Source: Spirochaetota bacterium (lineage in GTDB: Bacteria; Spirochaetota; Spirochaetia; Treponematales; UBA12059). From it: 43,627 bases of DNA. The position numbers and the translations under genes were made by a program. The notes under the pieces were generated by a model. That model did no database searches and was not told where the DNA came from. It was given only the letters and a program-made list of their open reading frames with translations. Below, one piece after another: positions 6,887-43,627 of this stretch. Each line of letters begins with the position of its first letter. The stretch's first letter is position 1. Location: the NCBI GenBank assembly GCA_018816345.1, contig JAHIWG010000039.1, positions 1-43,627 on the forward strand. The letters run 5' to 3'.

Positions 6887-10387
<3,501 letters not shown>

Positions 10388-10521
10388 GAAATTTGAACAC
10401 GGAGACGCAGAGACACAGAGGTATGATGGAAGAAAGAATGACCGGATCGGGAAGGAGTTCATCAACTCGATTTTTTCCTTTCCGTCCTTCTCATCTTCTC
10501 TGTGTCTCTGTGCTTGATTTC
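10388..10521 (+). repeat. Palindromic interspersed repeat, copy 1 (rpoB-rpoC gap)
   Basis: A 134-bp imperfect palindrome that begins at the base after the rpoB stop. Outer ends are GAAAT (10388-10392) and ATTTC (10517-10521). The purine-rich left arm ACACGGAGACGCAGAG..ACACAGAG mirrors the right arm CTCTGTGTCTCTGTGC (10498-10513). The same arms occur at 20867-21002 and at the right edge of the window. The look is that of a non-coding, MITE-like mobile palindrome. It leaves about 32 bp before rpoC, including the ribosome binding site. Confidence 0.85.
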
Positions 10522-10553
10522 GTCCTATACGGCCCTTTCAAGGGGGAGACTGC

Positions 10554-14939
<4,386 letters not shown>

Positions 14940-20866: not shown

Positions 20867-21002
20867 AGATTTTGCACAGAGCCACAGAGAAGACGAGAAG
20901 AATGGATGAGAGCAAAGAAAGAACAGGAAAGAAGCATTTTCTGATCCTTCATCACCTTCATTTTTCTCCCTCACCTTCTCTGTGCCTCTTTGCTCGAAAT
21001 CT
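20867..21002 (+). repeat. Palindromic interspersed repeat, copy 2
   Basis: A 136-bp imperfect palindrome with outer ends AGATTT and AAATCT. The left arm GCACAGAGCCACAGAGAAG (from 20874) mirrors the right arm CTTCTCTGTGCCTCTTTGC (ending 20993). It has the same plan and almost the same length as copy 1 at 10388-10521. It fills most of the ugpE-rpsJ gap that is not promoter or leader and may supply a transcript end for ugpE. Confidence 0.85.
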
Positions 21003-43572: not shown

Positions 43573-43627
43573 GATCCGGCACGGAGACGCAGAGAAGTAG
43601 AGATAAAAGATGGACAGAGTGTAGGAG
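43573..43627 (+). repeat. Palindromic interspersed repeat, copy 3 (cut by the window edge)
   Basis: The left arm GATCCGGCACGGAGACGCAGAG (in two parts: 43573-43580 and 43581-43594) matches copy 1 with ACGGAGACGCAGAG exact. The purine-rich interior continues to the window end; the right arm is not included. The preceding bases 43507-43572 are also purine-rich and may hold a degraded relative, but the match is weak. Confidence 0.65.

Follow-up and report, generated by a model that had tools for sequence, protein, structure and literature searches.

The rpoB and rpoC genes are usually thought to need matched expression. Why, then, should a large palindrome lie between them? The question is raised by a contig of an uncultured spirochaete (GenBank JAHIWG010000039.1; the window, 43,627 nt), whose 3.8-Mb draft genome, here G000, is 96% complete. 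The original prediction was that a mobile-looking element had inserted into a small rpoB-rpoC spacer and now forms a large hairpin in the rpoBC mRNA, with a possible influence on the beta:beta' ratio, on mRNA cleavage or on transcription into rpoC.

Anatomy of the rpoB-rpoC gap

The ORF calls leave 166 nt between the two genes, and the palindrome begins directly after the rpoB stop codon (Table 1). The gap starts with GAAATTTGAA-CACGGAGACGCAGAGACACAGAG (10388-10420), and CTCATCTTCTCTGTGTCTCTGTG-CTTGATTTC is found at 10490-10521. The RNA fold has -59.3 kcal/mol, compared with -38.8 +/- 3.7 kcal/mol for shuffled sequences (z = -5.5), and none of 200 shuffles folded as well. The gene boundaries and the fold confirm that a palindrome separates rpoB from rpoC, and the large hairpin proposed for the mRNA would, according to the predicted folding energy, form. 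There are seven matches to the arm motif in the window against 0.75 expected. The element is not an assembly artifact of the window's genome, because G006, an independent draft from the genus, has a homologous element at the same place.

Table 1. Positions in the window of the rpoB-rpoC palindrome, its parts, its neighbors and its further copies
Feature	Coordinates	Strand	Evidence
rpoB (1166 aa), upstream neighbor	6887..10387	+	ORF call; C-terminus recognized across relatives
Palindromic element, imperfect hairpin, 134 bp	10388..10521	.	Sequence, fold, arm-motif count, comparison with relatives
Left arm, made of three periodic units of ~8 nt (CACGGAGA CGCAGAGA CACAGAG)	10398..10420	+	Sequence, motif scan
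Right arm; its minus strand is the genome's canonical arm CACAGAGACACAGAGAAGATGAG	10490..10512	-	Sequence, genome search
CCCTTTCAAGGGGG, a possible small hairpin that overlaps the Shine-Dalgarno of rpoC (AAGGGGGAG, 10540-10548)	10533..10546	+	Sequence; function inferred
rpoC (1461 aa), downstream neighbor	10554..14939	+	ORF call
Second copy, after an ABC-transporter permease-like ORF	20867..21002	.	Sequence, motif scan
Third copy or copies, truncated where the contig ends	43515..43627	.	Sequence, genome search

The Shine-Dalgarno of rpoC lies outside the large hairpin, downstream of it, and judging from its sequence could itself be covered by a small GCCC...AAGGGGGAG hairpin. As a separate observation, the stretch GCCC...AAGGGGGAG before rpoC (10532-10548) is kept in the element-bearing congeners that were aligned. 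An Rfam scan of the window at the gathering score returned two tRNAs only and nothing at the palindrome, and a known RNA family was rejected on that basis.

Because the stem is strong and the gap is presumably cotranscribed, an intrinsic terminator or attenuator might be suspected here. However, simple consensus scans of 10300-10620 returned no terminator-like site, and those of the gap no promoter-like site that would restart rpoC transcription. The stem has no U-tract; an intrinsic terminator, which combines a GC-rich hairpin with a U-tract, was therefore rejected, and we regard transcriptional arrest of either kind as highly improbable. Read-through of the hairpin is expected because no terminator-like site was found.

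A family of intergenic palindromes in one genome

A whole-genome search of G000 detected approximately 20 palindromes with shared arms of the GCACAGAGACACAGAGAAGATGAG type, in agreement with the mobile appearance first ascribed to the element. The relative proposed at 20867-21002 is evident in the sequence; at 43573 there is arm-like sequence, but only the left part of a copy, which begins at approximately 43515, is present before the contig ends. Elements are ~110-160 bp long, and their arms are made of periodic 7-9-bp units. The copies examined in G000 are all intergenic, often between co-directional genes (hslU-flgB, flgB-flgC and flgK-flgL, with gene names read from sequence), mostly some tens of bases from the neighboring genes, and variable in their middle part. 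One longer copy (C100:16306-16792) encloses an ORF of 123 aa that matches TIGR04256, GxxExxY, with an E value of 1e-40 in a profile search of G000; the gene itself occupies L062:251-619 (G000:C100:16350-16718). The ends of this copy are common to the rpoBC-type copies.

The most suitable reading of the rpoBC copy is a MITE-like element without an ORF, belonging to an intergenic palindrome family that has a longer, GxxExxY-bearing form. The family is short and noncoding, with inverted terminal repeats and many copies; like MITEs, it consists of ORF-less elements in tens of copies whose ends are common with a longer ORF-bearing copy. It differs from MITEs in that the arms are species-specific while the sites are shared. 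Among the places listed in the draft genome, no transposase-bearing copy with the same arms was seen. A genome with tens of short palindromes between its genes also recalls REP/BIME elements mobilized by a RAYT (Y1) transposase, and the likeness to REP/BIME/REPIN systems (PMC2817692, PMC3116915) extends to a presumed driver gene in the same genome. The element here is, however, larger (~110-160 bp), its periodic arms have another architecture and the enclosed gene is GxxExxY. The lack of any Y1_Tnp (PF01797) match in the 96% complete draft of G000 largely refutes a REP/RAYT origin, which we consider to have almost no likelihood.

GxxExxY genes and inverted arms

All 14 GxxExxY matches of more than 100 bits in the bacterial family to which the spirochaete belongs are flanked by inverted arms, mostly of periodic 7-9-bp units such as CCACGGAGACACGGAGGCACGGAG, ACAGGATGGACAGGAT and CGCGAAGGCGCGAAG; arms are absent around L089, a partial match of 96 bits, and around most weaker fragments. 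Among plasmid GxxExxY loci, mostly from other phyla, arms were found at six of eight, some of them weak, and in a Sphingomonas one such locus is flanked by fabD and fabG. Across 12 aligned GxxExxY proteins the D and ExK residues, hallmarks of PD-(D/E)XK nucleases, are invariant. The GxxExxY family may be the coding component of a palindromic element that is widespread. The enclosed ORF is a clear member of the GxxExxY proteins (TIGR04256, PF13366). In the literature searched we found neither a link of GxxExxY to palindromic arms and ORF-less copies nor the arm sequence CACAGAGACACAGAG, and a sequence search returned no solved GxxExxY structure. We also observed GxxExxY genes of spirochaetes, and several from Bacteroidota, Sphingomonas and Gemmatirosa (L077-L088, L092, L093, L316-L323) inside inverted arms that are mostly periodic, at loci that are sometimes inside operons.

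The rpoBC arms of G000 score 26 against the arms of its own GxxExxY gene and at most 18 against those of other genomes' GxxExxY genes. At other sites the arms of ORF-less copies match the GxxExxY arms of their own genome best in G000 and in G019, which belongs to another genus, and nearly so in the congener G003. At rpoBC the own GxxExxY is the best fit in some genomes only, and not in G008, G020 and G022. A full GxxExxY gene is associated with more arm motifs among genomes at least 90% complete (one-sided p = 0.014), an association that is not significant when incomplete genomes are included (p = 0.105). Some element-rich genomes have no GxxExxY: G001 and G006, which are both incomplete, and G015, which has IVP genes instead.

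Occupied and empty rpoB-rpoC gaps in relatives

The family sample comprises 23 genomes including G000, most of them draft metagenome-assembled genomes, where assembly may have collapsed or lost repeats, and arms and sites were scored with simple purpose-written scripts. Twenty-one were scored for the rpoBC gap, leaving out G013, with several small hairpins, and G014, which could not be scored. A strong palindrome is present in 16 of the 21, from seven genera, and CACRGAG-type arms are recognizable in 13 of these 16, including G002, where the left arm alone remains and is followed by other palindromes. The gap is empty in the other five, measuring 9-13 nt in G004, G009, G010 and G018, and 36 nt in G021. 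The spacer into which the element was proposed to have inserted is indeed small in these relatives, but the insertion is not private to the window's genome: seven of the eight genomes of the genus, G000 included, are occupied, as are genomes of other genera, and a purely private insertion was rejected. Nor do all relatives share one conserved palindrome at this position, the finding that would have pointed to an ancestral regulatory element, since five family members are empty and both arms and interiors differ between species.

Among the named spirochaetes of a wider set, most have a short gap, and other palindromes recur at this position. We observed in addition a second repeat type, GGAGCGA(A)GGGGGAGACTTCCCCC, in the rpoB-rpoC gap of G002 (L034) and upstream of rpoC at L150, in two distant spirochaetes. 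In the spirochaete record MS499-40 (L137), rpoB and rpoC are separated by 824 nt that include what look like small ORFs.

Probable turnover of the rpoBC element

The grouping of rpoBC elements conflicts with the species tree. Between G000 and G006 the gap is 0.81 identical at a 4-fold site identity of 0.59, and between G000 and G003 it is 0.62 identical at a 4-fold identity of 0.69, among the lowest of the gaps compared; G001 and G003 share a gap identity of 0.79 although they are distant (4-fold identity about 0.6). In the RpoB-RpoC tree, some nodes of which are weak and in which the branch of G006 is long, G000 groups with G003 and G005, apart from G006. Gap identity thus runs against both 4-fold identity and the species tree, and for this reason it looks as though the element of some lineages has been replaced, its site staying fixed, rather than having drifted. 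A purely vertical conserved element was rejected by the empty family members, the differing arms and the relation of gap identity to 4-fold identity.

It could be argued that the palindrome is an ancestral, domesticated regulatory hairpin kept by selection, of which only the letters change. The gap is occupied in most of the family and is the only recurrently occupied gap of the surrounding region in the genomes scanned, and in the sister species G003 and G005 it is 99% identical while flanking 4-fold sites are 78-88% identical. Such identity is, however, not peculiar to rpoBC: between the same species, with several 4-fold values from misread frames left out, other element copies are 91-98% identical and regional gaps about 91% on average, at a 4-fold identity of 0.86. 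Slow evolution of the gap was accordingly rejected as proof of function, and we do not claim selection on the element, because other copies and gaps likewise exceed the 4-fold identity. The empty family members, the low G000-G003 identity and arms that are those of a genome-wide repeat family also speak against a domesticated hairpin, which we judge unlikely.

Shared sites with private arms

A composite query built from gene ends located the orthologous gaps of 15 other G000 copies in eight relatives; palindromes were called at a score threshold of 30 (coding controls reach 26 and shuffles 27). In G006 all seven orthologous gaps are palindromic, with arms of the window genome's type. In G003, leaving site E5 aside, 11 of 14 are palindromic with a differing arm type of its own; E10 scores 29, and the gap at E5 holds a GxxExxY copy, as it does in G000. 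A palindrome of the G003 type was seen in none of about 94 other G003 gaps (p about 1e-12), counted with a simple gene caller over 240 kb of contigs chosen for holding known sites. In G019 five of 14 orthologous gaps are palindromic. Homology between the interiors of G000 and G006 copies is recognizable at a few sites only, and beyond that pair interiors are mostly uninformative; interior similarity was therefore set aside as proof of descent. Since several interiors are unrecognizable even between G000 and G006, it is hard to rule out for any one site that the copy is simply old and decayed. Judged from these sequence comparisons, plain vertical inheritance does not explain shared sites with differing arms, and repeated replacement does.

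Replacement without exchange among copies would amount to a pure insertion hotspot, in which different palindromes would each arrive on their own behind the rpoB stop codon. Unrelated-looking palindromes do occupy the gap, namely periodic CGCGAAT-type hairpins in two spirochaetes (L123, L135), a GC-rich one (G012) and a GATAAGAG-type one (G007), and at E6 and E13 G015 has GTGGACGG-type palindromes where other genomes have the CACRGAG type. Yet the rpoBC interiors can be aligned in two pairs, G000 with G006 and G001 with G003, which indicates that some copies were inherited, and no target-site duplication was recognized by eye in the copies examined or in the comparison of occupied G019 with empty G021. 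We regard independent landing alone as a rather doubtful explanation.

A model for overwriting at fixed sites

We consider it probable that the rpoBC palindrome is an ORF-less member of a selfish, GxxExxY-linked palindrome family, the copies of which are repeatedly overwritten at fixed sites. These sites would be tolerated intergenic positions, where resident copies give way to the genome's current version, either by conversion, which homing-style cleavage of the arms by GxxExxY may initiate, or because new copies re-insert there. More tentatively, GxxExxY might be the nuclease of widespread homing-like palindromic elements, whose cutting of arms and repair from other copies would produce species-specific versions at fixed sites, including rpoBC. 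Species-specific arms at shared sites would make this an unusual example of bacterial concerted turnover, one that reaches into the rpoB-rpoC gap. If GxxExxY drives such palindromic repeats, it becomes possible to test what its role is and how periodic CACAGAG-like repeats arose.

In the RNA the element would be a long stem without U-tract between the presumably cotranscribed rpoB and rpoC, with rpoC probably translated from its own Shine-Dalgarno. In most empty relatives the rpoC Shine-Dalgarno follows immediately on the stop codon of rpoB, whereas in the window's genome it lies downstream of the hairpin, and translational coupling of the two genes may for that reason have been lost there. 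Processing of the hairpin by RNase III is plausible by analogy with the intervening sequences (IVS) of 23S rRNA, which are bounded by palindromes; excision of the stem-bounded IVS RNA of Coxiella 23S rRNA by RNase III has been demonstrated experimentally (PMC4990558). In Coxiella and Leptospira the IVS with an S23p/23S_rRNA_IVP ORF has, as here, complementary ends that form a long stem around a small ORF, and it has been called selfish (PMC4990558). The present copies differ in that they lie between protein genes, such as rpoB and rpoC rather than in the 23S rRNA gene, in that most are ORF-less, and in that the enclosed gene is the nuclease-like GxxExxY, the arms consist of periodic 7-9-bp units and cutting by RNase III is a prediction. 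Three of the four 23S_rRNA_IVP-family ORFs in G020 and G015 are bracketed by inverted or periodic repeats. In two relatives, four-helix-bundle 23S_rRNA_IVP ORFs (L099, L101 and L102) have such inverted or periodic repeats around them, for example GTGAATAGGTGAAT and GTGGACAGTGGAC.
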